A stretch of 32,342 nt of DNA from positions 1 through 32,342 of the IMG/VR virus record IMGVR_UViG_3300013093_000157; one strand, written 5' to 3'. The notes under the pieces were generated by a model that saw only the letters and a list, made by a program, of their open reading frames with translations, was not told where the DNA came from and did no database searches. Origin of the DNA: a virus. The position numbers were made by a program, and so were the translations under genes. Of this stretch, positions 1,209-23,971 are shown piece after piece. Positions within the stretch are counted from its first letter, which is position 1; every line of letters begins with the position of its first letter.

Positions 1209-1229
1209 AACAGTAAAAACTAACAAAAG

Positions 1230-2708: not shown

Positions 2709-2726
2709 TAAAATTTTTAACACGTT

Positions 2727-2921: not shown

Positions 2922-2926
2922 TTTGA

Positions 2927-2934
2927 TATTTATA
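2927..2934 (+). promoter_or_regulatory. Late-promoter-like TATTTATA box
   Basis: TATTTATA preceded by GA, six bases after the stop of the small gene. The next ATG (HNH endonuclease, 3035) is 100 bases away, unlike the usual 10-22. The box may originally have served the fibre gene now at 3615 before the endonuclease was inserted. Confidence 0.5.
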
Positions 2935-2980
2935 TGTAGCAAACTTATTAATTAGTTTCTAGAGATAGAATCTTTTTATT

Positions 2981-3020
2981 GGCCACGAAAGTGGGAGTGG
3001 GCAGTATACACTGTAACCAA
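2981..3020 (+). promoter_or_regulatory. Hairpins in the leader of the HNH gene
   Basis: The leader between the box and the HNH start holds CCAC-GAAA-GTGG (2983-2994), a four-pair stem closed by a GNRA-type tetraloop, and shortly after it CAGT-ATAC-ACTG (a second four-pair stem). It is also richer in G than its surroundings. Hairpins ahead of phage homing endonuclease genes are known to restrict their translation; applying that here is inference. Confidence 0.3.
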
Positions 3021-3034
3021 CCGTAATTAGAAGA

Positions 3035-3631: not shown

Positions 3632-5642
3632 AATCATATCATCTGGTTCAGCTGCCAGTTTGAGTTCCTTAACAGTAGACACATACGTAAGCGCAAGCAG
3701 CTTCAACGGAACCTTTACCGGATCTTTATTCGGAACTTCTTCTCAAGCAATATCGGCCTCTTACGCTGCAACTGCGTCTTATTTACTTGGGTATATCTCT
3801 CCTTTCCCATTCACAGGATCTGCACAGATCACCGGTAGTTTGGGTGTAACGGGAAGTATCAACACAGCGGGTAACATTACGACCACAGGAACCATTACTG
3901 CTCAAACGTTGGTGGTGAGTACGATAAGTTCTTCGATAGAGTACAGTTCTGGTTCGAATATCTTTGGAAATTCTACTTCCAACACACAAACCATGACGGG
4001 CTCCGTGAACATTACCGGAAGCCTTAACGTGGTTGGTAATTTGGTCTTCACAAACAGTTCATCTTACGTAGGTAACTTGGCCGGATATGGAGCAAACGCA
4101 ACTTCTTACTCTGTTTTCTTGGGAGAACAGGCGGGTTACAGTGCGTCTTTGTCCGCTAACGCGACCTTCCTAGGATCTTTTGCTGGCTTCAACAATACGA
4201 GTTCTTCTTTCACTACTGCAGTTGGTTACGGAGCTGGAATTTACGTTACTGCGTCTGGCAACTCTACAATGGTCGGTGCTTACGCCGGTTACAGCGCTTC
4301 TTACGCCGTGGGTAGTACTTTCTTGGGCATATACGCCGGAGCCGCTGCATCAGCGTCTTCTTACTCTACTTTTGTGGGACCTTACGCAGGTTATCAACTT
4401 TCTGGGTCTTCTTACTCAATTGCTTTGGGATACAATGCAGGAGTGAACAATCGCATAGGTAACAATAACATATTAATAGGTACCAACGTTCAATTGGCAA
4501 GCGGAAGCGTTAACTCAATGAACATCGGAGGTTTGATATTCGGATCCGGTTCTTACTTTAGCTCTACGAATCCTTCTTCTGGTTCTGCAAACGGTAAAAT
4601 CGGTATCAACCAGCCGAATCCACAATACGCATTGGACATCAGCGGTAGCGTAAACGTATCTTCTAGCATTGGATCTACTGCTTTCTTCGCAAATGCTGAT
4701 ACTTTGGTTATTACGGGCTCTATCTTCTTGACAGGATCTCAAAATATCACAGGATCGTTGAATGTAACCAACGGAGTTACGGCTTCTTTGTTCGGTACAT
4801 CTAGTCAGGCAATTACTGCATCTTACGCATTGACAGCATCTTACGCATTAAACGGTGGAAGCGGTGGAGGAAATTACTCTGGATTATTTGCTAACTTTAC
4901 TCAATCTAGTGCAGCAACTACTTGGTCGTTTACTCACAATCTTAACACTAAGACTCCACTAATACAAGTTTACGATACTTCTTACAATCAAATCATTCCT
5001 CAGTACATTTCTGGTTCTACGGTTAATACTGTAATATTACAATTCGGTATTCCAACCGCAGGTTACGCTGTAGCAACTAACGGTGGAGGACTTTATATTA
5101 CGGGTTCTACTTCTACTTTGGTTCAGGCAACTCCTGCAACTACTTGGTCCTTTGTACACAATCTAAACAATCAGTACAACACTTATCAAGTCTACGATAC
5201 GAACAACGAAGTAATAGTACCTTATAGAATTGTAGCCACAGATTTGACTTCTTCTGTAATTTACTTTGCATCGCCTATCGCCGGTAGAGCAGTAGCGCAG
5301 TACTCTGGAGTGAACGGAACTCCAAACGCATTGTCAGCTTCTTATTCTACTACAGCATCTTATAGTATCAGTAGTATTAGCTCATCTTATAGTACAACCG
5401 CGTCTTATATTAATGCGCTGAATCAAACGTTGACTTTGACAGGATCTTTGAACCAATCAGGAAGTTATTATATCACCGGTTCTTTATCTTTGACAGGAAG
5501 CTTTACTCAAACAGGTTATCACATATTGACTACCGTGTCTCAAAGCTTAAACTTTGCGGACGACGTTGCTGCTGCGGCAGGAGGCGTTCCTTTGGGAGGA
5601 CTTTACAGAAACGGTAACTTTATTCTTATCAGACTATCATAA
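3615..5642 (+). CDS. Large repetitive tail-fibre protein
   Basis: A 675-residue fibre protein. Parts in order: an attachment-like N-terminus (MPSWRKIISSGSAASL); a Ser/Thr-rich shaft with TGSLFGTSSQAISASYA; the shared module around residues 95-130; a region of six or more repeats built on FLG-x2-AG / AGY-x-A (about residues 150-285), like the YadA-type head repeats in bacterial trimeric adhesins and many phage fibres; an IGINQPNPQYALDISGS link; then two copies of a domain of about 60 residues opening ATTWSF-x-HNLN and ending AGYAVA or AGRAVA (about residues 433-565); and a Ser/Thr-rich tail ending in LNFADDVAAAAGGVPLGG. I infer a trimeric beta-rich fibre with two sugar- or virion-binding domains. 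The start overlaps the HNH gene by 17 bases. Confidence 0.7.
   Translation: MPSWRKIISSGSAASLSSLTVDTYVSASSFNGTFTGSLFGTSSQAISASYAATASYLLGYISPFPFTGSAQITGSLGVTGSINTAGNITTTGTITAQTLVVSTISSSIEYSSGSNIFGNSTSNTQTMTGSVNITGSLNVVGNLVFTNSSSYVGNLAGYGANATSYSVFLGEQAGYSASLSANATFLGSFAGFNNTSSSFTTAVGYGAGIYVTASGNSTMVGAYAGYSASYAVGSTFLGIYAGAAASASSYSTFVGPYAGYQLSGSSYSIALGYNAGVNNRIGNNNILIGTNVQLASGSVNSMNIGGLIFGSGSYFSSTNPSSGSANGKIGINQPNPQYALDISGSVNVSSSIGSTAFFANADTLVITGSIFLTGSQNITGSLNVTNGVTASLFGTSSQAITASYALTASYALNGGSGGGNYSGLFANFTQSSAATTWSFTHNLNTKTPLIQVYDTSYNQIIPQYISGSTVNTVILQFGIPTAGYAVATNGGGLYITGSTSTLVQATPATTWSFVHNLNNQYNTYQVYDTNNEVIVPYRIVATDLTSSVIYFASPIAGRAVAQYSGVNGTPNALSASYSTTASYSISSISSSYSTTASYINALNQTLTLTGSLNQSGSYYITGSLSLTGSFTQTGYHILTTVSQSLNFADDVAAAAGGVPLGGLYRNGNFILIRLS
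3895..4010 (+). repeat. Shared fibre module, copy 2
   Basis: Encodes TAQTLVVSTISSSIEYSSG and SNIFGNSTSNTQTMTGS, matching the blocks at 1711-1830 and 5714-5830. Confidence 0.65.
4060..4460 (+). repeat. FLG-AG head-type fibre repeats
   Basis: Successive units of roughly 22 residues carry FLGEQAGYSA, FLGSFAGFNN, AVGYGAGIY, MVGAYAGYSA, FLGIYAGAAA, FVGPYAGY and ALGYNAGV. Each unit pairs a G with an AG turn, the signature of a beta-roll in trimeric adhesins. Confidence 0.6.
4911..5310 (+). repeat. Duplicated ATTWSF-HNLN domain
   Basis: Two units, about 4911-5085 and 5134-5305, both run ATTWSF(T/V)HNLN, then QVYDT, then an I-x-P-x2-I segment, and end in P-x-AG-x-AVA. The spacing is about 220 bases. 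The two have diverged in between, so the duplication is not recent. Confidence 0.6.
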
Positions 5643-5651
5643 TTATAATAT

Positions 5652-7205
5652 ATGGCAATAGCACTATCTGGATCGTTGGTTTTAACTGGCTCGTTGACTA
5701 CTTCGGGAAACATCGTAGCGCAAACTTTGGTGGTGAGCACTATCAGTTCTTCTGTTGAGTACAGCTCTGGTAGTAATATCTTCGGAAACTCTACAGCTAA
5801 TACTCAAACATTTACAGGTTCGGTTAATATTACTGGTTCTGTTGGTATTAATACTGGAGTTCCTGCTTATACTTTAGACGTCAATGGTACAGGAAGATTT
5901 ACAGGAAGAGTCGGAATAAATGGTTCAGCAACAACGTACGGATTAACAGCCACTGGAAATACTTATTTAATTGGTCAAACAAGTGGAACATCTGATTATG
6001 GTTTAGTAGTTCAAAATTCAGGTTTTAATAATTTATTTTTGATAAGAAATGATGGACAAGCTACATTCTCAAGTAGTGTAACGGCAACTCAATATACAAG
6101 TACTGCAAATATTGCTTTTGTTCTTGGTAACGCTGCTAATAATGACTTTACAATGGGCGGTTCGAGTAGCAGTATGAGAATATTAAATAACACTCAAACT
6201 ACTGCTCTTTTCCAAATTACAAATGCAGGTGCAGCTACATTTGCAGGTATTGTAACAGCAAATGGTGGAAGATATAATGTACAAGGGGCAAATCAAAATA
6301 CGGTTTTTTTCAATCAAAATGCAGGAGGAACATCAACTGGATTTGTTATAGGCAGAAGTTATGGTTCAACAGATACGCAAGATTTTTTTATTTATGATGT
6401 TGCAGCATCTACTCCAAGAATGTTTATTTCTTCGGGAGGCAATGTAGGCATAGGAACAACAAGTCCAAATTCCATATTACATATTAAAGGTGCATTAAGT
6501 ATTCAAAGGAGTGTTAATAGTGATACTTCAACAATTAGTAATGAGGGGGGTAATTTTTATATTAATGCCGCAAGTGGGTATAATACAATATTCCAAAATG
6601 GCTCTACTGAATATATGCGTATTACAAGTGGAGGAAATGTGGGTATTAATAAAGCCAACCCAGGATCTATGTTAGATGTAAGTGGTAGTGGAACTGGTAT
6701 TTGTTGTGTACAAGCTACTTCTCCAAGTGGTACCACGGCCGCTGTTATTCAATCATCATCCCCAACTGCAGGATCAACATCATGGTATGCATATGTAGCT
6801 CAATCTGGAAATGGTTCAGTAGTAACAACAAATACTATGTTTGTTTATGGTAATGGTAATGTAGTAAACTTAAATAATAGTTATGGTACTTTATCAGATA
6901 TTAAATTAAAAGAAAACATTGTAGATGCTACTCCTAAATTAGCTGATATAATGAATTTAAAAGTTAGAAACTTTAATTTTATAGCAGATGAAAATAAAAC
7001 TAAGCAAATTGGTTTTATTGCTCAAGAAATAGAAGAAATATTTCCAGGACTGATAGAGGAAAATCCAGATAGAGATATAGACAATAATGATTTAGGAACA
7101 GTAACTAAAACAGTTAAAACATCAGTATTAGTACCTATGCTAGTAAAAGCTATTCAAGAACAACAAGCACAAATAGAAGAATTAAAATCACTTATAAATA
7201 AATAA
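5652..7205 (+). CDS. Tail fibre with C-terminal S74 self-cleaving chaperone
   Basis: A 517-residue fibre. Residues 1-65 repeat the shaft and shared module of the neighbouring fibres. The middle (about 70-410) has short beta-type repeats with phrases such as FISSGGNVGIGTTSPNS and YMRITSGGNVGINKANPGS, typical of receptor-binding tips. The last 100 residues match the intramolecular chaperone of endosialidase-type fibres (peptidase S74): LSDIKLKENI provides the Ser/Lys pair, followed by QIGFIAQEIEEIFPGL, and a coiled coil EQQAQIEELKSLI ends the protein. In this family the domain trimerises the fibre and then cuts itself off in front of the serine. From about 5850 on the codons become clearly more AT-rich than the first 70 codons, which suggests a swapped tip. 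The gene starts 9 bases after the previous one. Confidence 0.85.
   Translation: MAIALSGSLVLTGSLTTSGNIVAQTLVVSTISSSVEYSSGSNIFGNSTANTQTFTGSVNITGSVGINTGVPAYTLDVNGTGRFTGRVGINGSATTYGLTATGNTYLIGQTSGTSDYGLVVQNSGFNNLFLIRNDGQATFSSSVTATQYTSTANIAFVLGNAANNDFTMGGSSSSMRILNNTQTTALFQITNAGAATFAGIVTANGGRYNVQGANQNTVFFNQNAGGTSTGFVIGRSYGSTDTQDFFIYDVAASTPRMFISSGGNVGIGTTSPNSILHIKGALSIQRSVNSDTSTISNEGGNFYINAASGYNTIFQNGSTEYMRITSGGNVGINKANPGSMLDVSGSGTGICCVQATSPSGTTAAVIQSSSPTAGSTSWYAYVAQSGNGSVVTTNTMFVYGNGNVVNLNNSYGTLSDIKLKENIVDATPKLADIMNLKVRNFNFIADENKTKQIGFIAQEIEEIFPGLIEENPDRDIDNNDLGTVTKTVKTSVLVPMLVKAIQEQQAQIEELKSLINK
5714..5830 (+). repeat. Shared fibre module, copy 3
   Basis: Encodes VAQTLVVSTISSSVEYSSG and SNIFGNSTANTQTFTGS, matching copies at 1711 and 3895. 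The change in base composition inside this gene begins just downstream. Confidence 0.65.
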
Positions 7206-7261: not shown

Positions 7262-7984
7262 ATGGCAATAGTATACAAACATACAAGACTGGATACAAAC
7301 GAAGTATTTTACATAGGTATAGGATCTAAAAAAAGAAGAGCATATTCTAGTTATAAGAGAAGTTCTCATTGGCATAACATAGTTAATAAAGCTGGATACG
7401 AAGTTGAATTATTACACGAAAATATAGATTGGAATAGAGCTTGTGAAATAGAGAAAGAGTTGATTAAGTTATATGGAAGAAAAGATCTTGGATTGGGAAC
7501 TTTGGTAAATTTAACAGACGGTGGAGACGGAAGATTTGGAGTGACTGCTTCTGATGAAACAAAGAAAAAAATGAGTCAATCTCATATTGGTTTGAATACT
7601 TGGTCAAAAGGAATAAAGAGACCAGAAGAGTTGGTTAAACAAATTACTGAAAGCGTAAGAAAATATTGGAAACATAATACTAGACGACCATTGACAGAAG
7701 AAACAAAAGAAAAACTTAGAATTCGTTTAGCTGGGAGACCTGGAACTTGGATAGGAAAAAAACACAGCGAAGAAAGCATAGAAAAAATGAAACGTTCGCA
7801 TGGAGTGGGAAAAGATAATAAAAGTTACGGTAGAAAAAATACTGCGGAAACATTAGAAAAAATGAGAGAGTCTGCGTTAAAGATACCTAACTCTACTTGT
7901 CCTCATTGCAATAAAGTGGGAAAAAGTAACGCTATGGTAAGATGGCATTTTGACAACTGTAAATTTAAACAAAAAAATATATGA
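7262..7984 (+). CDS. GIY-YIG homing endonuclease (Seg-like)
   Basis: A 240-residue protein. The catalytic module is at the N-terminus: IVYKHT, then FYIGIGSKKR (the YIG half, residues 17-19), and the later NLTDGGDG typical of phage GIY-YIG enzymes. It is followed by two or three NUMOD3-type DNA-binding segments (SDETKKKMSQSHIG, TEETKEKLRIRLAGR, SEESIEKMKRSHG, TAETLEKMRESA). It ends with a zinc finger CPHC ... VRWHFDNC shared with the HNH enzyme at 3035. Composition is AT-rich. It is flanked by two copies of the same gene start (7207 and 7981), and its last four bases overlap the intact copy. Members make site-specific cuts in related phages and so spread; the cut site here is probably near the start of the 7981 gene. 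Confidence 0.85.
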   Translation: MAIVYKHTRLDTNEVFYIGIGSKKRRAYSSYKRSSHWHNIVNKAGYEVELLHENIDWNRACEIEKELIKLYGRKDLGLGTLVNLTDGGDGRFGVTASDETKKKMSQSHIGLNTWSKGIKRPEELVKQITESVRKYWKHNTRRPLTEETKEKLRIRLAGRPGTWIGKKHSEESIEKMKRSHGVGKDNKSYGRKNTAETLEKMRESALKIPNSTCPHCNKVGKSNAMVRWHFDNCKFKQKNI

Positions 7985-8194: not shown

Positions 8195-9544
8195 ATGTCA
8201 ATAACGTTTGGTAACATACTAGGTTCCGGATCACTGGCCATGAGCAATAGAGGCTCACAGGGAGGAATTACGTTTATTACAAATTACTTTCCTCCTGTTG
8301 CACCGACGCCTTCGCCAACGTTTGCTCCAACAACTGCCCCAACTACGGCAGCTCCAACTACAGCTCCTACTCCTTCGCCAACGTTTGCGCCTACAACCGC
8401 AGCGCCTACAACAGCGCCTACCCCTGGACCAACGACAGCGCCAACAACTGCTGCGCCAACTACCGCTCCTACTCAAGCACCAACAACTGCACCAACGCCA
8501 AGCCCAACAACGGCTCCAACCACCGCTGCTCCTACTCAAGCGCCAACTACTTCTCCGACCACCGCTCCAACTACGGCAGCTCCAACTACGGCGCCTACTA
8601 CAGCTCCTACACCGGCTCCAACGAATGCGCCTACTCAAGCACCGACTACGGCACCAACAACAGCGCCGACTGCGGCTCCTACTACTTCTGCTCCTACTAC
8701 GGCTCCTACTACAGCACCAACTACCGCTCCTACGCCTAGTCCAACCACAGCACCTACTCCTGCTCCTACAACTGCACCTACAAGTGCACCAACAACAGCT
8801 CCTACCGCTGCGCCAACAACTAAAGCGCCTACGACTGCACCAACTACTGCGCCTACGACGGCTCCAACACCTAGTCCTACAACTGCTCCTACGACTGCAC
8901 CAACCACAGCTCCTACAACGGCGCCAACACCTAGTCCTACGACTGCTCCTACACCAAGTCCAACTACATCACCAACGCCTAGTCCTACTACTGCACCAAC
9001 GCCTAGTCCTACTACGGCACCAACGCCTAGCCCGACAGCTTCACCAACTACCGCACCAACTACGGCACCAACGCCGAGTCCTACTCCATCGCCTACGCCT
9101 AGTCCGACACCTAGTCCAACTCCGTCACCGACCCCAAGTCCAACACCGAGTCCTACTCCATCGCCTACGCCTAGTCCTACCCCTGCTCCAACAGCGGCTA
9201 CGACTAACGTATCTTACTACGCTAAGAAGTCTACAACAGCTGGTACTTACTACATGTATTGGAGTACAGACAACGCTACTTGGAACCAAAATACTACAGC
9301 GTTGAGTACGTCTTGTAACAACATCGGTTCAACACCAAGTTACGCAGTGGGTACAACGTTCTACTTCGTAATGTCGAACCCAACCGCAGGCGGTCCTTCA
9401 AATCAAGGTTGGTCAACTAACTTAACTTCTGGAGTAACATGTCCAGGCACTACAACAAGTTGTACTTCGAATAGAGTAACTACGGTAACTTCTGGTACAT
9501 TGACAGTAGCGTTAACCGGTAACACTGCATCTGGAATCTGTTAA
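8195..9544 (+). CDS. Pro/Thr-rich mucin- or extensin-like virion protein
   Basis: A 449-residue protein in three parts. Residues 1-34 ([16 protein letters not shown] ... [11 protein letters not shown]) form a short head with no signal peptide. Residues about 35-336 are almost only Ala, Thr, Ser and Pro in the dipeptides TP, AP and SP (TTAPTPSPT and relatives), with no Pro-Pro runs apart from the edge. Residues about 337-449 form a Thr/Ser/Asn-rich domain with several Cys and Trp ([24 protein letters not shown]) ending in IC. I infer an extended stalk carrying a terminal domain on the virion. In plants, clustered non-contiguous X-Pro is the known signal for hydroxylation and arabinogalactan addition. 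A prolyl-hydroxylase-like gene and glycosyltransferases follow directly, so this is the best candidate substrate. It has no box of its own. Confidence 0.7.
8297..9200 (+). repeat. Ala/Thr/Ser-Pro repeat tract
   Basis: About 300 codons of PT-based repeats. The first two thirds are mainly APT with interspersed TPSP; the last third shifts to almost pure (PTPS)n. Synonymous codons vary continually (CCA, CCT, CCG; ACT, ACA, ACG, ACC), so the DNA is far less repetitive than the protein. Long stop-free frames on both strands here are by-products. Confidence 0.85.
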
Positions 9545-9594
9545 TAGACTCTTCACATGGAACTTTAAGTCCATAGGAATCAGGGATTTGTGTA

Positions 9595-9602
9595 TATTTA
9601 TT
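9595..9602 (+). promoter_or_regulatory. Late-promoter-like TATTTATT box
   Basis: TATTTATT preceded by TA, 21 bases before the ATG at 9624. It is the only box before the next at 19055 that is intergenic, so it probably drives the whole hydroxylase-glycosyltransferase operon. Confidence 0.5.
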
Positions 9603-9623
9603 AGTAACTAAACACGGTTTTGC

Positions 9624-10916
9624 ATGGAAGAACAAGTAATACCTCAAGAAGATTGCGGATGTGGTCGTAAAAAACCGAAGAATTTTTTATTGAACAACGC
9701 TGGCCTGGAAATTTATACAGTAGACGACTTTTTAACCCCAGAAGAGTGCGATCATTTGGCCGCTTACATAGAAGAGCATAGTTATAGATCTCAGGTAGCC
9801 GGGTACGGAGACACAGCGAGCACTACGACCGAAGCAAGGACAAGTTCTACTTCTACTTTGTACAACACAGATCCAATCGTAGCGGACATCAACGCAAGAA
9901 TAAGCAACGATTTGGGAGTTCCTCAGGAAAACGGCGAGGACATGCAGGGCCAAATATATCAAGTTGGTCAAGAGTTCAGACATCATCACGATTACTTCAC
10001 TGGAGACGGTTATATCAATCATTGTCTGTCCAGCGGTCAACGTACTTACACTTTCATGATTTACTTGAACGACGTTGAAGCCGGTGGAGAAACAAACTTT
10101 TCTTCGTTAGAGAACTATTCGATCAAACCGAAAAAAGGAATGGCGGTAGTGTGGAAAAATTCCGACGGTAAAGGCTCAGAAGTTCCGGCCTCTATCCACG
10201 CAGGAATGCCGGTTATAGAAGGCAAAAAGATCATCATTACAAAATGGTTCAGAGAAAGAGCGTGGAATATAGCAGAAGACAGTAGATTGGCAAAAGAATA
10301 TCACGAAAACGCCAAAAATACTTTAGTGTTTAGGACCAAGGAAGACTTACCAAAACTTAGTGAATTGGGCTTCAAAGTAGTCAAAGTTCCCATCAATACA
10401 TGGAGATTGATTCAAGAGGCTTACATGCTATTACAAAATGTTAAGACTCCGGAAGTATGGGACGGCATGGAAACTTTTATCCACGACAAAGACGGTAAAC
10501 CTGCCGACCTAGATATATTCAACATGGACAACTGTTTCAGAATCAAAGAAATTATCATAGACGAACTACAACCGATTCACGAAGAGTTCATACAGAACAA
10601 GGCAAAATTAAAGCCCAAGTGGATCTACGGTATTAGATCGTACAAGAGCGGAGCAATACTAGAAAATCATACGGATACATTAGAAACACATCACGTATCT
10701 TCAATCATTATAGTCGACAAAAAAGTAGACAAGGATTGGCCTCTCGACATACAAGATCATAACGGAAACTGGCACAAAATTTATACCGAGCCAGGAGACA
10801 TGATATTGTACGAATCAGCCATTTGTTTACACGGTAGAACTGAGCCATTCGAAGGCGAGTACTACAGAAATTTCTTCACACATTACACTTTAGCCGATTA
10901 TAAATTTGTTCCGTAG
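9624..10916 (+). CDS. Double 2OG-Fe(II) oxygenase, prolyl 4-hydroxylase-like
   Basis: 430 residues with two oxygenase domains. Domain 1 (about 25-215) follows the prolyl 4-hydroxylase plan: EARTSSTSTLY (70-80, like the RTSSG element), iron ligands His121 and Asp123 in FRHHHDYF, TFMIYLNDVEAGGETNF (143-159), KPKKGMAVVW, and distal His192 in SIHAGMPVIEGKK with Lys202 ten residues on as the 2-oxoglutarate ligand. Domain 2 (about 240-430) has a second full set: His349-x-Asp351 (ENHTD), distal His403 (CLHGR) and Arg415. The N-terminus has a Cys-rich CGCGRKK. P4H enzymes hydroxylate proline in unstructured chains using O2 and 2-oxoglutarate in the cytosol or ER. The neighbour upstream is a Pro-rich tract, and two bases after the stop the glycosyltransferase starts. 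Substrate assignment is inference. Confidence 0.8.
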   Translation: MEEQVIPQEDCGCGRKKPKNFLLNNAGLEIYTVDDFLTPEECDHLAAYIEEHSYRSQVAGYGDTASTTTEARTSSTSTLYNTDPIVADINARISNDLGVPQENGEDMQGQIYQVGQEFRHHHDYFTGDGYINHCLSSGQRTYTFMIYLNDVEAGGETNFSSLENYSIKPKKGMAVVWKNSDGKGSEVPASIHAGMPVIEGKKIIITKWFRERAWNIAEDSRLAKEYHENAKNTLVFRTKEDLPKLSELGFKVVKVPINTWRLIQEAYMLLQNVKTPEVWDGMETFIHDKDGKPADLDIFNMDNCFRIKEIIIDELQPIHEEFIQNKAKLKPKWIYGIRSYKSGAILENHTDTLETHHVSSIIIVDKKVDKDWPLDIQDHNGNWHKIYTEPGDMILYESAICLHGRTEPFEGEYYRNFFTHYTLADYKFVP

Positions 10917-10918
10917 TT

Positions 10919-13507
10919 ATGGATTATGTCGTTTACAGTACTAGTAACTCTAACTATCAATCTTGGCAGTGTAGATTATTAGAGCATTCGTTTACAAGAG
11001 TAAATCAGCCAGGTAAATTAATTAGATTGTGTAGTCACAACTACCACGATCCGGATAGACCTTTTGATACGTCAGAGATATCGGAAATTATAAAGCTGCC
11101 CGATTACAGAACCAGATGGACCAAATATACCTCAAACGTAGATCTGGATTACGGAATAGTGAACAAGATCGAAAGCCTAAAATACTGGTTAAAACACTAC
11201 AAAGGTATAAAGGACTCGGACGTAGTTTTGTTCGTTGACCCTGACATGATATTCGCAAAAGCGGTCACACAAACTGTACAACAAGGTACGATATTGGGTC
11301 AAAGATGGATAGACGAAGGATCTCACGATGGCAAACCTTTTAGAACTTACGCAAGTCACATTAAGGACAGAGTTACTAGGGACACGGTATTCATGTATCC
11401 TTACATCGCGACCGTAGGGGATCTAAAAAAGATCGTCGACAGGTACGCTAGCCTTTGTTACAAGATGAGGTTAGAAAACTTCCCAGATCTTTGGGAGTCA
11501 GAGATGTATTCTTTGATTATCTCTGCGTTGGAACAAAACATAGAAGTAAAGACGATAGACAATCTAGGATTCTGTACAACTTGGGCAGACAGAGACGGAT
11601 TCACGAGCAAAGAGTTCGTAGATTCCATTCATCTGTATCACTATCCGTGGAGCATTCTAAACAAGGAAGGCGAGAGAATATTCAACAAGCAGGACTACAC
11701 TTACAAGACCAGACAAGAGCACTGGGATAGAATTAATCCAAACGAAGCTACGACTTATTTGGAACAACAGTTTCTACAGGCCATAGACAGTTACAACACT
11801 GAGAAGAAGATAGATTTTTACTGGAGAGAAAACGAAATGGTGGACGCTTTGTTCGATTATAAGCCAAAGAACAAGTATTTAGTGTTCAGACCTTGGCCCG
11901 GTGGATTCAACAATATCAGAATGTCTCTAGAGTTGGCCGCTTGTATTGCGTTTTTACAAAACAGAGTATTGGTACTTCCACCCGAGTATCGCATGTATCT
12001 GTTAAACAACACGAACTCTTTTTCTACTTTCTTCGATACGCAAGATTTGGGAATAAAAACAATTTCTTTCGAGGAGTTCGAGCAAGAATTTAACGTTCAA
12101 GGTTGGGAAGACATAGAAAAGATATCGTACACTTTCGACGGAGATGTAGTCGATACTTTGCTTACTACCGATATTCCACCCGATGACGTAATCAACGGTC
12201 GTAAGACTAGCGATCTAAATTTGCTTAACGAGTATCAAGTACTGTATTTCAAGGACAATTTACTTGGAAGCTTTTACTTGAACATATACTCCAAGCAATT
12301 ACCGCAGTTGTGTAAGTACGTAGCAAGACACATTCACTACAACACCGAAATATTCACTGAAGCTTACAAGGCCGTAGAATTCTTGAACGACTTCGGACGC
12401 TACTACGCAATACACATTAGACGCAACGATTTCCAGTACAAAGACCTATATTCTCCAATAGACGTAATATACGAAAACATCAAAGACGTAGTTCCTGAAG
12501 GATCTAAATTGTACGTATCTACGGACGAACAGGACAAGGCTTTCTTCGATCTACTAAGACAACATTACCAACTGTACTTCTACGACGACATTAAGCACCT
12601 AATCTACGCCAATATTAACGTGGACCTAATCGGTCCAATCGAGCAAATCGTTTGTACTTACGCCAAGACTTTTATCGGTAACAAACTATCGACTTTCTCT
12701 TCTTACATATATCGTTTGAGAGGATACATGAAGAATATTACAGACAAAAGATTTTTAACGTACCAAACAAAATGCCAACCGGACGAAGAAGAACCTTATT
12801 GGTGGGTTGCCGTATGGGCCAGAGAATATTCTCAAGTATGGGAGAGCATAAAGGACATCGAGTATTTTAACCCTGACATCAGCTTGGGACCAAAGACCGT
12901 GTTCGTATCGATAGCATCTTATAGAGACTCTCAATTGACCGATACCATAGACAGTTTATTCGCGAATCAAAGCGGAAAAAATACTATAATCGTCGGAGCC
13001 TGTATGCAGGACACGGAAGAAAACTACAATTCGTTCAAATACAAGGATCACCCTAACGTTAGAACTTATTTCATTCCTTATCAAGACGCAAAAGGCGTAG
13101 GGTTTGCAAGGAATTTAATTCAACAACAACTGTTCGATAACGAGGACTATTTTTTACAGATCGATTCTCACAGTCGTGCGTGCAAGAATTGGGATCAAAT
13201 TCTAATCGATCAAATAAAAGACTGTCCTTCGGACAAAGCAATTCTGTCCACTTATCCAAACGCTTTCGACGTATTGGACAACGAACAAAAATACTTCCAA
13301 TACGATACCTGCCCTTATTTAAAAGTACATCAAATAGACGAAAGCGGAAAGGTCCACGCCTGCAGCGCTGGAATAGTGGAGAAAGGAGCGCCGATGCTTG
13401 GATTCTGGATAGCTGCCGGATTTTTATTTACTAAAGGTCGTTGGTGCAGGGAAGTAGTGTACAGCAAGAATTGTATTTTGCCGGCGAAGAGGATCACATC
13501 TCTGTAA
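10919..13507 (+). CDS. Three-domain protein glycosyltransferase, 5' part of a frameshifted gene
   Basis: 862 residues before a stop. Domain 1 (1-260) resembles plant peptidyl-Ser galactosyltransferase and Hyp arabinosyltransferase: NYQSWQCRLLEHSF, QPGKLIRLCS, VNKIESLKYWLKH, the DxD motif FVDPDM (107-109), LWESEMYSL and HLYHYPW. Domain 2 (about 318-640) resembles GDP-fucose protein O-fucosyltransferases: PGGFNNIRMSLE, HIRRND (499-504), VSTDEQDKAFFDLL and FIGNKLSTFSSYIYRLRG. Domain 3 (from 658) is of the GT60 GlcNAc-transferase family, which includes the Skp1-hydroxyproline enzyme: VFVSIASYRD, FARNLIQQ, DYFLQIDSHSR (DxH), GFWIAAGFLF. At about 13466-13470 the frame breaks: VVYSK should run on as ELYFAGEEDHISV, which lies in the -1 frame. 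Nearby ORFs in the same operon suggest modification of a virion protein. Family calls are from motif memory. Confidence 0.75.
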   Translation: MDYVVYSTSNSNYQSWQCRLLEHSFTRVNQPGKLIRLCSHNYHDPDRPFDTSEISEIIKLPDYRTRWTKYTSNVDLDYGIVNKIESLKYWLKHYKGIKDSDVVLFVDPDMIFAKAVTQTVQQGTILGQRWIDEGSHDGKPFRTYASHIKDRVTRDTVFMYPYIATVGDLKKIVDRYASLCYKMRLENFPDLWESEMYSLIISALEQNIEVKTIDNLGFCTTWADRDGFTSKEFVDSIHLYHYPWSILNKEGERIFNKQDYTYKTRQEHWDRINPNEATTYLEQQFLQAIDSYNTEKKIDFYWRENEMVDALFDYKPKNKYLVFRPWPGGFNNIRMSLELAACIAFLQNRVLVLPPEYRMYLLNNTNSFSTFFDTQDLGIKTISFEEFEQEFNVQGWEDIEKISYTFDGDVVDTLLTTDIPPDDVINGRKTSDLNLLNEYQVLYFKDNLLGSFYLNIYSKQLPQLCKYVARHIHYNTEIFTEAYKAVEFLNDFGRYYAIHIRRNDFQYKDLYSPIDVIYENIKDVVPEGSKLYVSTDEQDKAFFDLLRQHYQLYFYDDIKHLIYANINVDLIGPIEQIVCTYAKTFIGNKLSTFSSYIYRLRGYMKNITDKRFLTYQTKCQPDEEEPYWWVAVWAREYSQVWESIKDIEYFNPDISLGPKTVFVSIASYRDSQLTDTIDSLFANQSGKNTIIVGACMQDTEENYNSFKYKDHPNVRTYFIPYQDAKGVGFARNLIQQQLFDNEDYFLQIDSHSRACKNWDQILIDQIKDCPSDKAILSTYPNAFDVLDNEQKYFQYDTCPYLKVHQIDESGKVHACSAGIVEKGAPMLGFWIAAGFLFTKGRWCREVVYSKNCILPAKRITSL

Positions 13508-14046
13508 TGTCCTACGCTAACGGTTGGGACGTATACGTTCCCGATACCTCTACTATATGGCACGATTATACAGACAACAGAATACAGAGCCCAACAAAAT
13601 ACAGACCGTTGCATTGGGAAGACCACCCGGGTGTGAGCGCTAATTTGGAACTGTTAAAAGATTTGTACAAAGACGCTTACGGCACAAAGACAGTAAGATC
13701 GGCAGAGCAATTCTTAGAGATCGCAAAAAAGATATCGAAATACGACGAGCACGTAGACATAGAAATACAATTCGACTATTCTAAAACTCCCGAACCAGAT
13801 CCTAGCAAAAAAGTCAAAGTAATTATATTCGCTTTATTGGACAGAAACAACAAAGAAATATTCAGACCTGACTTGTACGACGAAGAAATATTTACTAGAA
13901 CTTCTAACGTTAAAAAATTCCACATCTACAATCATGTGCACGAAAACGCAGTAAGTTGTTTGTGGTTCTACAAGTACGAGGACGATAGCTTTAGCGACAG
14001 GATAGATTTACCAATTACAAAAGAAGGCACTAAATACATACTATAA
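13441..14046 (+). CDS. 3' part of the frameshifted three-domain glycosyltransferase
   Basis: An open frame entered at a TTG; the biologically meaningful part starts at GAA 13468. It supplies the missing end of the GT60-type domain (ELYFAGEEDHISV, NGWDVYVPDTSTIWHDY, a region expected after the GFWIAAGF segment) and then a linker and a beta-rich C-terminal domain (VKVIIFALLDRNNKEIF, KFHIYNHVHENAVSCLWFY). Joining the two frames with one restored base gives about 1042 residues. An internal ATG at 13507 overlaps the upstream stop (TAATG), so re-initiation is possible, but it would omit the GEED segment. It ends in a TAATG overlap with the next gene. Whether the break is an assembly error, a real mutation or natural cannot be told. 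Confidence 0.65.
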   Translation: MVQGSSVQQELYFAGEEDHISVMSYANGWDVYVPDTSTIWHDYTDNRIQSPTKYRPLHWEDHPGVSANLELLKDLYKDAYGTKTVRSAEQFLEIAKKISKYDEHVDIEIQFDYSKTPEPDPSKKVKVIIFALLDRNNKEIFRPDLYDEEIFTRTSNVKKFHIYNHVHENAVSCLWFYKYEDDSFSDRIDLPITKEGTKYIL

Positions 14047-14954
14047 TGAATAAAATATTTATATCGATAGCGAGTTACCTGGATTACGAAATACGATACA
14101 CGATACTCGATTGCATAAACAAAGCAAAACACCCTGAGAATTTATATTTTTCTGTTTGTTTGCAGTACGACGAAAACGAAGGCACAGAAGAGGACTGCAT
14201 CGACGATTTGGTAAAAAGGTACAATATCAAGATGAGCAAGTATCACTACACTTTGTCCGAAGGCGGTTGTTGGGCAAGACACATAGCTCAGTTCAATTAC
14301 AACAACGAGGACTTTAGTTTACAAGTCGATTCTCACACACGATTCATTCAAAATTGGGACGAGATCGTTATACGCGACTACAACAAACTAAAAGAAACGG
14401 TAGAAAAACCATTGATATCTTTCTTGCCTCCGTCCTATTCTAGATTGGACAAAATAGGAATCGATTACGATCACAAGCACATATTCGATTTGGACAAGAT
14501 AAACATTCCAAAGATAAAGTATATTACTCAAGAATATTGGCCGATATACGGTGGGTACGACAACGAGCACAACATAGGGTTCGAACCAAAAAACGTAGTT
14601 ATTTTATACGGAGGCTTCATATTCACCGAAGGCAAATGGGTAAAAGAAGTAAAGCAGGACCCGGAGCACTATTATACTGGTGAAGAGTTTGCTTTGGCCA
14701 TAAGATCTTATACCAAAGGATACGATATATACACACCGAGTCAAGTGGTAGCATGGCACAGAGCGCATCCGCAAGTGAACAAAAAACATTTCAACAACAA
14801 TCCAGAAGAAGTAGCCAAAGCAAAACACGCACACGCTATTTCACGATTGATAAAACTAATCAAAGGCGGAGATTTGGGAGAGTACGGTCCAGGCAACGTA
14901 AGAACGGTAGAGGATTACATCAAATTCGCCGATATTAAATTCCCAGAGATCTAA
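14046..14954 (+). CDS. GT60-type GlcNAc-transferase-like glycosyltransferase
   Basis: 302 residues, a stand-alone relative of the third domain of the gene before. Shared landmarks: IFISIASYLDYEIRYTILDC at the start, CWARHIAQFNY, the metal-binding DxH in FSLQVDSHTRFIQNWDE, YGGFIFTEGKWVKEV, then YTGEEFALAIRSYTKGYDIYTP and VVAWHR. The family includes the enzyme that puts GlcNAc on hydroxyproline of Skp1 in Dictyostelium; most bacterial and viral members are uncharacterised. All landmarks are intact here, in contrast to the broken neighbour. The ATG overlaps the preceding stop by one base, as does the gene after it, indicating translational coupling. The donor sugar cannot be read from sequence. 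Confidence 0.75.
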   Translation: MNKIFISIASYLDYEIRYTILDCINKAKHPENLYFSVCLQYDENEGTEEDCIDDLVKRYNIKMSKYHYTLSEGGCWARHIAQFNYNNEDFSLQVDSHTRFIQNWDEIVIRDYNKLKETVEKPLISFLPPSYSRLDKIGIDYDHKHIFDLDKINIPKIKYITQEYWPIYGGYDNEHNIGFEPKNVVILYGGFIFTEGKWVKEVKQDPEHYYTGEEFALAIRSYTKGYDIYTPSQVVAWHRAHPQVNKKHFNNNPEEVAKAKHAHAISRLIKLIKGGDLGEYGPGNVRTVEDYIKFADIKFPEI

Positions 14955-15901
14955 TGACAAAGCGAGTTATAAAAGACAACAAGTTAATTTCTATGTTCGA
15001 TGCAGTTAGATTCATAACGTCGAACAAAGAGGATCTATTCGATGCCAAAATCGTAGAAGGGTTGGACGATTATAGAATTATCATAACTCATGGAGTTATG
15101 GGCGAATTGATCAATATCGTAGAAAACGACTACTACGGATTGGACAAATATAAGTTCGTTTTTCTTTGCAATAACATTGAGATAGTCAAGATGCTTCACT
15201 CGCTTAAATTGAGCGCGTATCTAATAAGCGAATACATCTTTTCTAACGAGGACGTGTACAGAATATACGAGGACATTGAGCAATATTGGGACTGTATATT
15301 TCCTGGCAGAGAATCAAAAACGCACGGTATATTCAACAGAAAGTACAGCGTGAATATCTACAAAATGTACCAACACTCAACGTACCCAGTACCGGCGGAA
15401 AACATGCCCTTATTTTTCAATCAATCGAAGTGCGGATTAATGACCACACTATCAGAAGGATCTTGTTTGTCCGTAGGCGAAATGTTGCTTTGTGGAATTC
15501 CAGTAATTTCCGTAAACGCGGCCAATAATTTACCCAACGAATCTTATTACCCTTTCAATAAACAAGCGTACAAAAATACTTACGACATAGTTTTACCTCA
15601 CACACTTGGAGGCCGCGAATTATTTTTGACCGATAGCAATTCTATATATTGCGATAGGGACGACGATAGCATAGAGGCAGCGATAGTAAAAGCAAACAAC
15701 AAACGTTGGAATCGCGTATCCATTAGAAGGGACTTTATATCCAAGTTGTATTTCGAAAGACTTCAATTAGTGTACTTGCTAAAGAGTCTATTGAAAGATC
15801 TACAATTTGAAAACGTAGATCCTCAAGAATTTATTAATTTACCTTACGGTAACAGTTCTATTACCACACATCAATGGCAAGAGATCTGGACAAAGTTATA
15901 A
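14954..15901 (+). CDS. GT4-like (GT-B fold) glycosyltransferase
   Basis: 315 residues. The C-terminal half has the characteristic donor-site stretch of GT-B glycosyltransferases: CGLMTTLSEGSCLSVGEM, with Glu residues spaced as in the E-x7-E motif, followed by LLCGIPVISV. The N-terminal half (VRFITSNKEDLF, IIITHGVMGELI, FVFLCNNIEIVKML) fits the acceptor-side Rossmann domain, though it is shorter than usual (whole GT4 enzymes are commonly 350-400 residues). It would extend the glycan from a nucleotide-sugar. It overlaps the preceding gene by one base and is followed after 3 bases by the carbamoyltransferase. Confidence 0.7.
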   Translation: MTKRVIKDNKLISMFDAVRFITSNKEDLFDAKIVEGLDDYRIIITHGVMGELINIVENDYYGLDKYKFVFLCNNIEIVKMLHSLKLSAYLISEYIFSNEDVYRIYEDIEQYWDCIFPGRESKTHGIFNRKYSVNIYKMYQHSTYPVPAENMPLFFNQSKCGLMTTLSEGSCLSVGEMLLCGIPVISVNAANNLPNESYYPFNKQAYKNTYDIVLPHTLGGRELFLTDSNSIYCDRDDDSIEAAIVKANNKRWNRVSIRRDFISKLYFERLQLVYLLKSLLKDLQFENVDPQEFINLPYGNSSITTHQWQEIWTKL

Positions 15902-15904
15902 TAT

Positions 15905-17470
15905 ATGTTTAATATCGCAGTATACTCAGGACACAACGCTTCTATTACTATAGCTCAAGACGATACGATCTTAGAAGTACTGGAGCTAGAAAGATTTACA
16001 AACTACAAAAACGCAGGGTTGATGTGGTTTAAACCAATGCACGATCCCGCTAAAACTATACAAGAGATACTTCTTTATTTCAAAATAAAATATGGAGCGC
16101 AAGAGTACGAAAATTTACTGTGCAATCAGGACGATACTGCAATGTACGAAAACGTATTCGATGGAAAGTCAAATTTCATCAAACTATTTAAAGCAAAAAA
16201 TCTCATAGAAATATATCACCAAGAAGCTCACGCTTACGGTGCGTTTTATCAATCCGATCTTCAAGACGCAACCATAATAACTTTCGACGGTGGAGGAAAC
16301 GATGGCTGTTTTAATTTTTACTCTGCGAATAGAAAAGATGGAGTGAAATTGACTCGCATGGATTACGATTATAATTTGGGAGAAAAGTACGCCGAGATAG
16401 GACACCATACGACCTCGATAAGAAGAGAGAATACTGTCAACATGTATCTAGAATATCCAGGAAAACTTATGGGACTCTGCGGTTACGGTAACATAAAAGA
16501 AGAGTACTTACCTGCCATGAGAAGTTTTTATACTGGTCATCACGGTCTACGAGAACTAAGGGACGAAAATTATAGAATCATGCAAAGAGCCCTAAACTTG
16601 CCTGACGAATTAAGTGGTAAAGTGGAGTTGGACATCGTAGCAACATCTCAAAAAGTATTCGAGGAAGTATTCTACAACGTTAGTAAAAAGGAGATAGAAG
16701 AATCGAACGATAAACTAATACTGTCTGGTGGTTGTGCTTTAAACATACTGAACAATACCAAGGTAAACGCAATATCCAAAACGTTCGTTCCACCGAATCC
16801 AAACGACGGTGGACTTTCTTTGGGATTCATGCTAAAGTACTTGAAACCAGAAAAAGCCTTCGATGCGACCTACATGGGCCCAGAAGTATGGGACAGATTT
16901 CAATTATCCGAGTACATTCACCAGTACGAAGGGAAAGCTTTGGACGAGACTAGATTGACTGAAGATATTATCATTGGCAAAATAGTCGGAATCGTACAAG
17001 GACGCTCTGAGATAGGTCCAAGAGCATTGGGAAATAGAAGCATAATATGTAACCCATGTTGGCCAGGAATGAAAGACATTTTAAACGCGAAAGTAAAGAA
17101 TAGAGAGTACTACAGACCTTTTGCGCCCATAGTTAGATTGGAAGACGTAAACAAATATTTCGAGTTCGATCAAGAGTCCAAGTGGATGAGTTATTGTCCA
17201 AAAGTTAGAGAGGAGTACAGGGACGTTCTAAAAGCTATAACACACGTGGACGGTACGGCCAGAGTTCAAACTGTGACCAAAGAACAGAACGAATTATTGT
17301 ACAACATGTTAACCATTATGGAAGACAAGACCAAGGTCGGAGTTTTGTTAAACACTTCTTTTAACATCGCCGGAAAGCCAATCTTGAATAGTTATAAAGA
17401 TGCAATATGGATGCTTGAAAATACCCAAATGGACGGGCTAGTATTGGAAAACTATTACATAAAGAAATGA
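15905..17470 (+). CDS. NodU/TobZ-type O-carbamoyltransferase
   Basis: 521 residues, close to the family's usual 550-600. N-terminal domain: IAVYSGHNASITIAQD opening, YHQEAHAYGAFYQS with the metal-binding His pair, IITFDGGGNDGCF, YPGKLMGLCGYG, LSGGCALNILNN and NPNDGGLSLGF. C-terminal domain: IVQGRSEIGPRALGNRS, REYYRPFAPIV, LNTSFNIAGKPI. These are the hallmarks of enzymes that activate carbamoyl phosphate with ATP and carbamoylate a hydroxyl, usually on a sugar (Nod factor, tobramycin). Placed among glycosyltransferases, it most likely caps a sugar of the glycan built by this operon. Overlaps the next gene by four bases (ATGA). Confidence 0.9.
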   Translation: MFNIAVYSGHNASITIAQDDTILEVLELERFTNYKNAGLMWFKPMHDPAKTIQEILLYFKIKYGAQEYENLLCNQDDTAMYENVFDGKSNFIKLFKAKNLIEIYHQEAHAYGAFYQSDLQDATIITFDGGGNDGCFNFYSANRKDGVKLTRMDYDYNLGEKYAEIGHHTTSIRRENTVNMYLEYPGKLMGLCGYGNIKEEYLPAMRSFYTGHHGLRELRDENYRIMQRALNLPDELSGKVELDIVATSQKVFEEVFYNVSKKEIEESNDKLILSGGCALNILNNTKVNAISKTFVPPNPNDGGLSLGFMLKYLKPEKAFDATYMGPEVWDRFQLSEYIHQYEGKALDETRLTEDIIIGKIVGIVQGRSEIGPRALGNRSIICNPCWPGMKDILNAKVKNREYYRPFAPIVRLEDVNKYFEFDQESKWMSYCPKVREEYRDVLKAITHVDGTARVQTVTKEQNELLYNMLTIMEDKTKVGVLLNTSFNIAGKPILNSYKDAIWMLENTQMDGLVLENYYIKK

Positions 17471-18276
17471 AAAACGTAGGATTTTACTATCAAGTTTGGC
17501 ACACGAATAAGTTATCTATATTCGAAGCAATGAAGCGACTGAGATCCGTGTATCCGGACAACGAAGTAGTGTTAGTAATTGCAGGGCTGAGTAAAGACTC
17601 GGTTACAGAATACGAAAACGACTTTGTTAATATAATTAAAAGTAAATTCAACATAACTACGATCGACTATCTTTTTATAGAGGACAGTCCTTACATGGCC
17701 AAATGCATCTTAAACGTACCAGAACAAGAAAGCAAACGAGAAGAGTACATGAAATTTTCTCATCTGTGGTTCGATAAGTTTGTTTCTTTACCCTCTGAAA
17801 ATATGGACGTAGTCGTTAACTGCTCTGACGATTGGTATCCAATAACACAAATTCCAATAGACTACGATGTGGACGTTTGCGGAAGATTGACTCCATGGAG
17901 CGATTGGATGGAAGAAGAGAAGATGAAGAGCAAATTCAATTTTAGCAAAAACGAACTTGTAACGTGGATACAACACGGTCACTACATGAACATAAAAAAA
18001 CTAAAGCAAAAATACACAGAAGAAAATAAAAAATACATAGACGATGTGGTAAGAGACGTATTTCCTTCTAATCTACCAATATTCTTGGATTACTTTCACA
18101 GCTTATGGAACGTAGTAGCTTTTGATACGTTTAAAAGCGCAGATCACATTCACGAAGTCGGAGCGTTTAAAATTAATTACGAAGAAGACAATCACGGTTT
18201 TCCTTCTATTCACGGTGGCAAAGGATTACACTTTCTTCCAATAAGCGAAGAAATGATACAATTAGGAATCAAATAA
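17467..18276 (+). CDS. Probable GT-A-fold glycosyltransferase, family unknown
   Basis: 269 residues. The start NVGFYYQVWHTNKLSIFEAM followed by RSVYPDNEVVLVIAG resembles the first strand-helix-strand of GT-A enzymes. An acidic cluster VVNCSDDWYPITQ (about residues 117-129) sits where a DxD metal site would be expected. Later parts (VTWIQHGHYMNIKKL, HIHEVGAFKINYEED, GFPSIHGGKGLHFLP) are rich in His and Trp. I cannot assign a CAZy family and it might have another function. The four-base overlap with the carbamoyltransferase and the GT31-like gene 8 bases downstream place it firmly in the glycan operon. Confidence 0.5.
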   Translation: MKNVGFYYQVWHTNKLSIFEAMKRLRSVYPDNEVVLVIAGLSKDSVTEYENDFVNIIKSKFNITTIDYLFIEDSPYMAKCILNVPEQESKREEYMKFSHLWFDKFVSLPSENMDVVVNCSDDWYPITQIPIDYDVDVCGRLTPWSDWMEEEKMKSKFNFSKNELVTWIQHGHYMNIKKLKQKYTEENKKYIDDVVRDVFPSNLPIFLDYFHSLWNVVAFDTFKSADHIHEVGAFKINYEEDNHGFPSIHGGKGLHFLPISEEMIQLGIK

Positions 18277-18284
18277 CTCAATAT

Positions 18285-19028
18285 ATGGCAAAAATTATTA
18301 TTTTAAATCAAGCAACTATTTTTCACAACTATTCTCAAATAGATGCTTTATCGAGAACTACATGGGGACTTTATAAACACCCCGATGTTAAGTGTATCCA
18401 CTACTATGGAGCTTACGACATAGACGATAGACCAGTTACAGGATTTCCAAGCATTCCTGCAAGGGGCGAAGTTCTAATGTTCGACGACGATAGAATGTTA
18501 GTCGGAGCAAACGATGGCAATGGACCTTATTTCGATCCAAGAGGGGAGAAAATGATGCTAGCTTACGAATACTGCTTAAAGCACTTTGAATTCGACTTCA
18601 TACTAAGAATATGCAATACGTCTTACATAGACATCGAAGCAATGGTAAAATACTTTAACTCTATTAGAAAGGAACGAATCTACGATGGTACAAGAAACAT
18701 GTACAACACAGAGATATTCTTCGTTACTGGGTTCAACAGCTACTTATCAAGGGACACAGTAGAAAAGGTAATAGAACACAAGCAGGATTATCTTGACATA
18801 AAATTACCCGAGGATTTGGCCCTAGGAAAACTACTAATGCACGATCTAAAGTACACGACCTTCGAAGATCAACCTCACGTAGACACTCACGTATTGGCCA
18901 CAGAGCCAGGATTCAAACCTGACTCTTTTGTGGGTTCGGAAAGATTCAACTACAGATTCAGATCCCATACTGTGGACGAATACGTGGCATTTCACAACTA
19001 TATGATAAGAAGATACCAAAAAGATTAA
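18285..19028 (+). CDS. GT31-like glycosyltransferase (tentative)
   Basis: 247 residues, last gene of the operon. ALSRTTWGLYKHPDVKC (residues 21-37) resembles the R-x-TW opening of beta-1,3-galactosyl/GlcNAc-transferases (GT31). MLAYEYCLKHFEFDFILR matches the position where the substrate-side helix leads into the metal site, though the canonical DDD is replaced by ICNTSYID. FFVTGFNSYLSRDTVEKV and LPEDLALGKLL correspond to the later G-x-Y-x-LS and ED-x-x-x-G elements. A degenerate metal site makes activity uncertain; DDDR at about 67-70 is an alternative acidic cluster. In plants GT31 enzymes start Hyp-galactosylation, an interesting parallel given the operon. The gap after it holds the next box. 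Confidence 0.5.
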   Translation: MAKIIILNQATIFHNYSQIDALSRTTWGLYKHPDVKCIHYYGAYDIDDRPVTGFPSIPARGEVLMFDDDRMLVGANDGNGPYFDPRGEKMMLAYEYCLKHFEFDFILRICNTSYIDIEAMVKYFNSIRKERIYDGTRNMYNTEIFFVTGFNSYLSRDTVEKVIEHKQDYLDIKLPEDLALGKLLMHDLKYTTFEDQPHVDTHVLATEPGFKPDSFVGSERFNYRFRSHTVDEYVAFHNYMIRRYQKD

Positions 19029-23209: not shown

Positions 23210-23971
23210 ATGCTTACAAGTTACTTTCAAATTATTAGACAAGCTATCAAAGAAGATAGAACAAAAGACGGTGAAACTTATTATGAAGCTCACCACATAA
23301 TACCCAAATCTTTTGGTAAAAAAAGTTCAACAGTATTGCTCACAGCGGATGAACATTACAGAGTTCACAAAATACTAGTGGAGTGCTTTAAAGATCACTC
23401 ATTATACGCTTATAAAGTATATTGGGCTTTTCACAGAATGTCCTACGATGGATCAAAGACTTTAACAGAACAAGAATACAAAGAGGCAAGAGAATTATTA
23501 ATGCCACTATGGAAAAGAAAAAAATCTATAGAGCATAAAAAAAGAATTGGAAAATCTCACAAAGGAAAAAAACAAATCATTAATCCCAATACAGGAGAAT
23601 TTAAATTTATAGAATCATCAGAACTTCAAACTTATATAGATTTAGGATGGATAAATACCAATAAAAGTGTAGGAACAAAGAGATCAAATAAAAGTAAAAG
23701 TCTTATATCAATTAAAGCCACAGAATCTAAACTAGGAAAGATAGGAGAAGATTCCAGAGCAAGTAAAGGAATAGTTATATGTGAGAATATAGAAACAGGA
23801 GACAAAATAGAAGCGGGATCTGCTCTTCAAATGTCTAAAAAATTAGGCAATATCCATTATTCAGTTATACACGAAGCTTTAAATGGATCTAACTACACTA
23901 ATTATAAACCTAGATCAAAAGGCAGTAAGTACTATAATTTCCTTCAGACGCATAAGATATATTACAAATAA
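23210..23971 (+). CDS. HNH homing endonuclease with NUMOD-type repeats
   Basis: 253 residues. HNH core: YYEAHHIIPKSFGKKSS (His28-His29) and LTADEHYRVHKI (His49, His53); in place of the usual DN-L segment it has STVLLT, so the central Asn is not obvious. Downstream DNA-binding modules: KKSIEHKKRIGKSHKGKK (NUMOD3-like), a segment INPNTGEFKFIESSELQTYI, and GIVICENIETGDKIEAGSAL followed by LNGSNYTNYK (NUMOD1-like). It lacks the Cys4/His zinc finger of the other two endonucleases. AT-rich compared with tail genes. It sits between tail tube and gp26-type gene, where T4-like phages normally have none, together with the AT-rich gene at 24001. Confidence 0.8.
   Translation: MLTSYFQIIRQAIKEDRTKDGETYYEAHHIIPKSFGKKSSTVLLTADEHYRVHKILVECFKDHSLYAYKVYWAFHRMSYDGSKTLTEQEYKEARELLMPLWKRKKSIEHKKRIGKSHKGKKQIINPNTGEFKFIESSELQTYIDLGWINTNKSVGTKRSNKSKSLISIKATESKLGKIGEDSRASKGIVICENIETGDKIEAGSALQMSKKLGNIHYSVIHEALNGSNYTNYKPRSKGSKYYNFLQTHKIYYK

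Follow-up and report, generated by a model that had tools for sequence, protein, structure and literature searches.

A candidate hydroxyproline glycosylation island with its own proline-rich protein among the tail genes of a phage

Hydroxyproline (Hyp) glycosylation is regarded as a eukaryotic trait, seen in plant and algal walls and on Skp1. Why, then, would a phage carry a prolyl 4-hydroxylase (P4H)-type enzyme, protein glycosyltransferase domains and a proline-rich protein in a single gene island? The island lies at positions 8195-19028 of a 32-kb IMG/VR fragment (IMGVR_UViG_3300013093_000157; "the window" is this whole stretch of 32,342 nucleotides) from a contractile-tailed phage. Tail-fibre-like genes (171-7205) precede it, and the genes for the sheath (20227), tube (22644) and hub (24626) follow. 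An initial annotation, made from the letters alone, had proposed that this phage hydroxylates and glycosylates its own Pro-rich virion protein. All of its open reading frames (ORFs, named here by their first position) were found where it had placed them, on the plus strand and between fibre and sheath genes, and their tight same-strand spacing suggests an operon.

The proposed substrate is the first product of the island, a protein of 449 aa (8195..9544) with a repeat tract (residues 37-333, DNA 8303-9193) and then a Cys-containing C-terminal domain. The 297-aa tract holds 96 Pro, 112 Thr, 57 Ala and 24 Ser residues; in the remaining window proteins Pro makes up 3.2%. The prolines are spaced 2, 4 or 5 residues apart, never adjoin one another, and follow Ala (49), Thr (23), Ser (22) or Gly (1). 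With 95 of the 96 in an Ala/Thr/Ser-Pro context, the roughly 300 residues of such repeats first noted in this protein are real. The clustered, non-contiguous AP, SP and TP pairs in a Pro-rich tract that mark hydroxyproline-rich glycoproteins are thus present in 8195. Codon position 2 is nearly fixed across the tract (entropy 0.48 bit) and position 3 is free (1.74 bit), so it is the repeat in the protein that is conserved, rather than one in the DNA. Contig L002 starts with a homologue of this C-terminal domain (66% identity), immediately 5´ of the P4H gene there. Ten Pro-rich proteins compared with PHROGs and Pfam matched no structural family, and the virion location of the Pro-rich protein is therefore argued from gene context.

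The next gene (9624..10916, 430 aa) encodes an N-terminal P4H domain (Pfam 2OG-FeII_Oxy_3, 8e-20) and a second 2-oxoglutarate (2OG)-Fe(II) domain. When the profile of the phage family was compared with the PDB, it matched the P4H of B. anthracis (1e-36), Chlamydomonas Cr-P4H-1 (5e-31), human C-P4H-II (3e-26), the enzyme of chlorovirus PBCV-1 (2e-25) and P4H-TM; the natural proteins among the matches listed are prolyl 4-hydroxylases only. An AlphaFold model (pLDDT 91) shows a double-stranded beta-helix fold that is closest, among the matches listed, to Cr-P4H-1 with bound (Ser-Pro)5 (3gze; Z 29.9, 1.5 Å over 196 residues). The top 19 fold matches are all prolyl hydroxylases, and the HIF hydroxylases score about Z 18. 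All 20 phage sequences compared have the same iron ligands (H121, D123, H192) and 2OG lysine (K202). They also share the candidate substrate-binding residues R72, E105, R140 and W208, found by alignment to the peptide-binding residues named for P4H-TM and Cr-P4H (PMC7948501); the Trp position among the latter differs in the phage sequences. One check set beforehand was whether structure prediction would group 9624 with other oxygenases, and it both folds and aligns with P4Hs. By sequence and predicted fold, 9624 is a true P4H-type enzyme, and Pfam agrees with the initial annotation that the oxygenase is double. The second domain has an invariant HxD...H motif and arginine of its own (H349, D351, H403, R415), so a second oxygenase activity is probable. 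In PHROGs this domain carries the label "ferrochelatase", and parts of the P4H domain that of "DNA endonuclease"; both look like wrong annotations spread via cyanophage records.

Downstream of the oxygenase is a row of transferases, and the Pfam scores for the P4H-type oxygenase, the HPAT domain, the protein O-fucosyltransferase (O-FucT) domain, both GT60 domains and the carbamoyltransferase all exceed the curated cut-offs. ORF 10919 (10919..13507) begins with an HPAT domain (PF23452; residues 4-257, 1.2e-7, 31.9 bits against a cut-off of 23.9), matching the plant-type peptidyl-Ser/Hyp glycosyltransferase domain that had been recognized there. Its predicted fold is GT-A, with general matches such as glycogenin (Z 15.8) and no specific solved relative among the matches listed. 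An O-FucT domain follows (PF10250; residues 320-604, 3.7e-26), and it aligns with the protein O-fucosyltransferases POFUT2 and POFUT1, nearest to POFUT2 in sequence (5e-8) and fold (Z 18.9, 3.5 Å over 279 residues), and not with the lipid- or DNA-modifying families that had been named as the contrary outcome. Among 12 relatives of the fusion, the O-FucT profile fits all 12 and the HPAT profile 7 at E 0.01. The third domain is the start of a GT60 transferase (PF11397, an N-acetylglucosamine (GlcNAc) transferase family; residues 712-846, 1.1e-36), of which the model is poor. The end of GT60 and a C-terminal beta domain are read in another frame as ORF 13441 (13441..14046). Since four relatives (L002, L004, L006 and L007) have an uninterrupted ORF of 1039 aa, 10919 and 13441 are one gene split by a frameshift near 13441-13507, not separate ORFs as first listed; the frameshift may be genuine or may have arisen in assembly, and the near-identical contig L147 begins just downstream. 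A stand-alone GT60-type (GlcNAc) transferase is next (14046..14954, 2.4e-48), so both GT60 domains originally claimed are present. GT60 is a mixed family that contains Skp1 Gnt1, acting on hydroxyproline, and a T. cruzi enzyme that starts mucin-type glycosylation (PMC6939170).

The remaining island genes vary in how firmly they can be named. ORF 14954 (14954..15901), first called GT4-like, is probably a glycosyltransferase, with a match to a phage glycosyltransferase family (1.3e-6) and relatives in islands L099 and L116; the GT4 label itself is weak (Pfam 0.0025, below the cut-off). ORF 15905 (15905..17470) is the NodU-type carbamoyltransferase that it had been taken for (Pfam 4.4e-62), and NodU was the only family found in the NCBIfam scan. 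ORF 17467 (17467..18276), previously an unknown probable transferase, has no family in the Pfam, PHROGs or NCBIfam scans by which to class it, and its only second occurrence is in L147. ORF 18285 (18285..19028) belongs to a conserved island family, with relatives in L006, L007, L084, L106 and L116, and is a probable glycosyltransferase. The GT31 label given to it is unconfirmed: the window protein has no Pfam match, one of seven relatives weakly matches Fringe (GT31, E 0.048), and a PDB search with the protein and its family found nothing.

Our searches recovered 51 P4H-anchored and 31 HPAT- or fusion-anchored viral loci, and P4H and HPAT-FucT-GT60 occur together in 54 loci of the pooled set, some of which are overlapping stretches of one contig. 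The P4H gene comes immediately before the fusion gene in almost every island in which both were found. The module adjoins the sheath gene in the window and also in L002 and L004. In L007 it lies between a dCTP-deaminase-like gene (read by eye) and the DNA polymerase gene, and the last gene of that island encodes 516 aa of APTTAPT repeats. Further lineages have repeats of TPAPTAAPV (L062 group), TPTATPT (L095), TPTPTP (L097), SPTDAPTP (L110), SPPTSPPT (L113) or TPSPVTPSPV (L106, L116), and the module-linked Pro-rich ORFs are mostly unalike outside the repeats. The search for shared gene order, proposed as a check of the idea, thus places module and Pro-rich protein together in several phage lineages and genome positions. 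A scan of genome contigs for the fusion protein gave one distant HPAT-like gene, on a contig of a bacterial metagenome-assembled genome.

The linkage of Pro-rich genes to the module was compared with controls. By a single rule, set after the first examples had been seen, a Pro-rich ORF is present in the fetched locus of 9 of 25 P4H clusters (90% identity), or 9 of the 17 that span at least 11 kb, several others being contigs under ~5 kb. Control clusters, anchored on sheath or DNA polymerase genes of related phages that lack the module, contain one in 1 of 101 cases (Fisher p = 1e-6, with clusters partly dependent and locus lengths differing), and loci with GT60 but without P4H or HPAT have one in 0 of 22. 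Thr/Ser/Ala-Pro repeats are found in all module-bearing contigs above 90 kb that were examined; in L123 the Pro-rich gene is ~110 kb away from the P4H gene. HPAT/FucT is absent from all 20 control genomes above 100 kb, and T/S-Pro repeats occur in about one of them (G102, which has GT60), the other matches being polyproline. Sister phages L148 and L149, with sheath proteins 86% identical, pass from the fibre genes directly into the sheath gene, without the island and without a Pro-rich gene.

The analysis establishes the enzyme families, the P4H fold and catalytic residues, the recurrence of the module and its linkage to Pro-rich genes; from these we infer substrate, step order, acceptor residue, virion location and purpose. 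In this model, the P4H domain of 9624 would hydroxylate prolines in the Ala/Thr/Ser-Pro tract of 8195 and its relatives. HPAT-FucT-GT60, the stand-alone GT60 and the remaining transferases would then glycosylate hydroxyproline, and probably Thr/Ser nearby as well, and NodU would carbamoylate the glycan. This would yield a rigid rod covered in sugar, similar to the hydroxyproline-rich glycoproteins of algae and plants and probably borne on the tail or a fibre, where it might serve in shielding, stability or host contact. That the island acts in this way, as a protein-modification system complete in itself, we give a probability of roughly 0.6. That it glycosylates its own Pro/Thr/Ser-rich protein at all we hold with fair confidence; with more reserve, we favour hydroxyproline as an intermediate and as at least one of the sugar acceptors. 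The features that the initial annotation described are confirmed, with corrections on 13441, GT4 and GT31. Its central idea of self-glycosylation is partly supported: it came through the structure-prediction check aimed at refuting it and gained a strong gene-order linkage, with the GT31-like step left unconfirmed.

A number of observations weigh against this proposal. The active-site Tyr140 of Cr-P4H, whose role has been described (PMC9676403), is Phe (Phe118) in 20 of 20 phage sequences. Islands with P4H in which no Pro-rich repeat protein was found include L006 (41 kb), L012 (63 kb) and L087 (most of 36 kb). Conversely, the sheath relatives L022 and L026 have the repeat protein without the island, and only 1 of 40 records picked by exact Pro-rich repeats has a PF13640 enzyme, so that such repeats often occur without a nearby P4H. 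In the L106 and L116 groups, HPAT and Pro-rich proteins occur with no PF13640 match, only a smaller 2OG gene. Stenotrophomonas phage CM1 (L306-L310, OP883945), a jumbo phage in culture whose GT60 gene adjoins NodU and which encodes many TPTPS-rich proteins in a row, is likewise without a PF13640 match. For CM1, sugar on Thr/Ser without Hyp is plausible. Finally, the chlorovirus P4H has been a precedent since 1999, and no Hyp has been found in virions since (PMC7019647).

Several of these points bear on the rival that survives best, in which Thr/Ser residues in the Pro-rich tract receive their sugars directly from the transferases, as in mucins, and the P4H adds Hyp only for stiffness of the rod or acts on another protein, with Hyp not being the residue that bears the sugar. 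As GT60 includes both hydroxyproline and mucin-type transferases, among them the T. cruzi polypeptide GlcNAc-transferase (PMC6939170), Thr/Ser are acceptors no less possible than Hyp. The FucT domain has a Ser/Thr enzyme, POFUT2, as its nearest match, Thr is the commonest residue of the 8195 tract (112 of 297), and phage CM1 and the L106 group could be examples of such a system. Left unexplained are the position of the P4H gene directly before HPAT-FucT-GT60 in nearly all islands and the tracking of Pro-rich genes with P4H/HPAT rather than with GT60 alone. We regard this explanation as unlikely, if deserving of serious attention. A P4H that hydroxylates a host protein (for example EF-Tu), with transferases and NodU that alter host surface glycans and so block other phages, seems to us improbable. 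The fold matches include two bacterial P4Hs that act on EF-Tu, from B. anthracis and P. putida (5v7y, Z 23.1; 4iw3, Z 19.9), and the authors describing cyanophage S-SCSM1 read a similar gene set as host cell-wall modification (PMC9602691), but the Cr-P4H-1/(Ser-Pro)5 structure is a clearly better match. The domains also resemble protein-acting transferases, and neither the Pro-rich linkage nor the insertion among tail genes would be explained by a host target. The known logic of phage DNA hypermodification, a 2OG oxygenase that makes hydroxymethyl bases and transferases that add sugars to them, fits the gene pairing, and one fusion protein out of 12 gives a match to TAGT (TET-associated glycosyltransferase, E 2e-4), but this reading is very hard to credit for an oxygenase that aligns and folds with P4Hs, with no TET/JBP enzyme among the matches listed, and for fusion proteins that HPAT and O-FucT profiles fit as described above.

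The proposed hydroxylation and glycosylation of 8195 has partial parallels in known systems. The plant and algal pathway for extensins and arabinogalactan proteins (P4H, then HPAT/SGT-type enzymes) shares with the phage the P4H fold, closest to Cr-P4H-1, the HPAT-family domain and an AP/TP/SP-rich substrate-like tract. The phage differs in the fusion of HPAT to O-FucT and GT60, the second 2OG domain, NodU, the Tyr140 to Phe change, its viral coding and the fact that no secretion system was seen. The Skp1 pathway (PhyA P4H, then the GT60 enzyme Gnt1) has the same combination of P4H and GT60 and a cytoplasmic logic, whereas the phage substrate would be a long Pro-rich tract rather than one Skp1 proline, and its GT60 is fused and duplicated. 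The P4H of PBCV-1 (vCPH) is also virus-encoded, and active on Pro-rich peptides in vitro, but belongs to a eukaryotic virus. Mucin-type glycosylation in T. cruzi places GT60 on a Thr/Pro-rich protein, with, to our knowledge, no P4H or HPAT partner.

Among phages, cultured cyanophage S-SCSM1 has a 2OG oxygenase, an O-FucT, another 2OG oxygenase and then NodU and GDP-fucose genes, though as separate genes without the HPAT-FucT-GT60 fusion. We do not count it as a clear case, since pattern searches gave only polyproline stretches and no Thr/Ser-Pro repeats. It is a partial cultured counterpart to the window; a description of such a phage system, which the initial annotation had also been unable to name, was not found in Creative Commons-licensed PMC papers. 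Salmonella phage Sen-NF has a P4H-like oxygenase with no transferase around that gene, and was rejected as a counterpart.

The families are known from eukaryotes, and it is their phage-borne combination with a dedicated substrate that is undescribed in that literature. The broadest version of the proposal, a complete and mobile Hyp O-glycosylation pathway in phages that acts on dedicated Pro-rich virion proteins to make extensin-like rods, the first outside eukaryotes, is tentative, and we rate its chances a little below even. If true, hydroxyproline glycosylation would work in bacteria without an endoplasmic reticulum, phage-borne and self-contained, and some of the many phage 2OG oxygenases that lack an explanation would gain a function. 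Prolyl-hydroxylase-like proteins are the commonest human-type structural match in phages (Phold; PMC12774648). Compact fused enzymes could also be of use for producing Hyp-glycoproteins in E. coli, and sugar-coated phage fibres might act as shield or adhesin.

The islands of relatives include further genes, for GT17, DUF5672, methyltransferases, UDP-galactopyranose mutase and a GDP-mannose epimerase/dehydratase-type protein. At the place of the Pro-rich gene, a family starting MPIT(F/L)SN.SGTGNF occurs in L006 (11085-11972), L009 (4366-5244) and L012 (2985-3863), a possible alternative substrate in islands without a Pro-rich gene. PLOD-type glycosyltransferase domains (PF25342) are found in L002 (7066-7770), L004 (17820-18521) and L084 (17035-17745). 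In animals this domain is attached to lysyl hydroxylases and hydroxylysine-linked, and its presence here raises the question of lysine hydroxylation. Pairs of GT60 and NodU genes are found near the DNA polymerase gene, without P4H, HPAT or a Pro-rich protein, in many related phages (L255-L272 and others).

Elsewhere in the window, probable homing endonuclease genes of HNH and GIY-YIG type, read by eye, are interspersed with the tail genes (3035-3631, 7262-7984, 23210-23971), and similar genes are found near the sheath gene in relatives. One fibre-like gene has 63-bp repeats at 1494-1624 and 1959-2092, encoding SASYAYTASSAINA.

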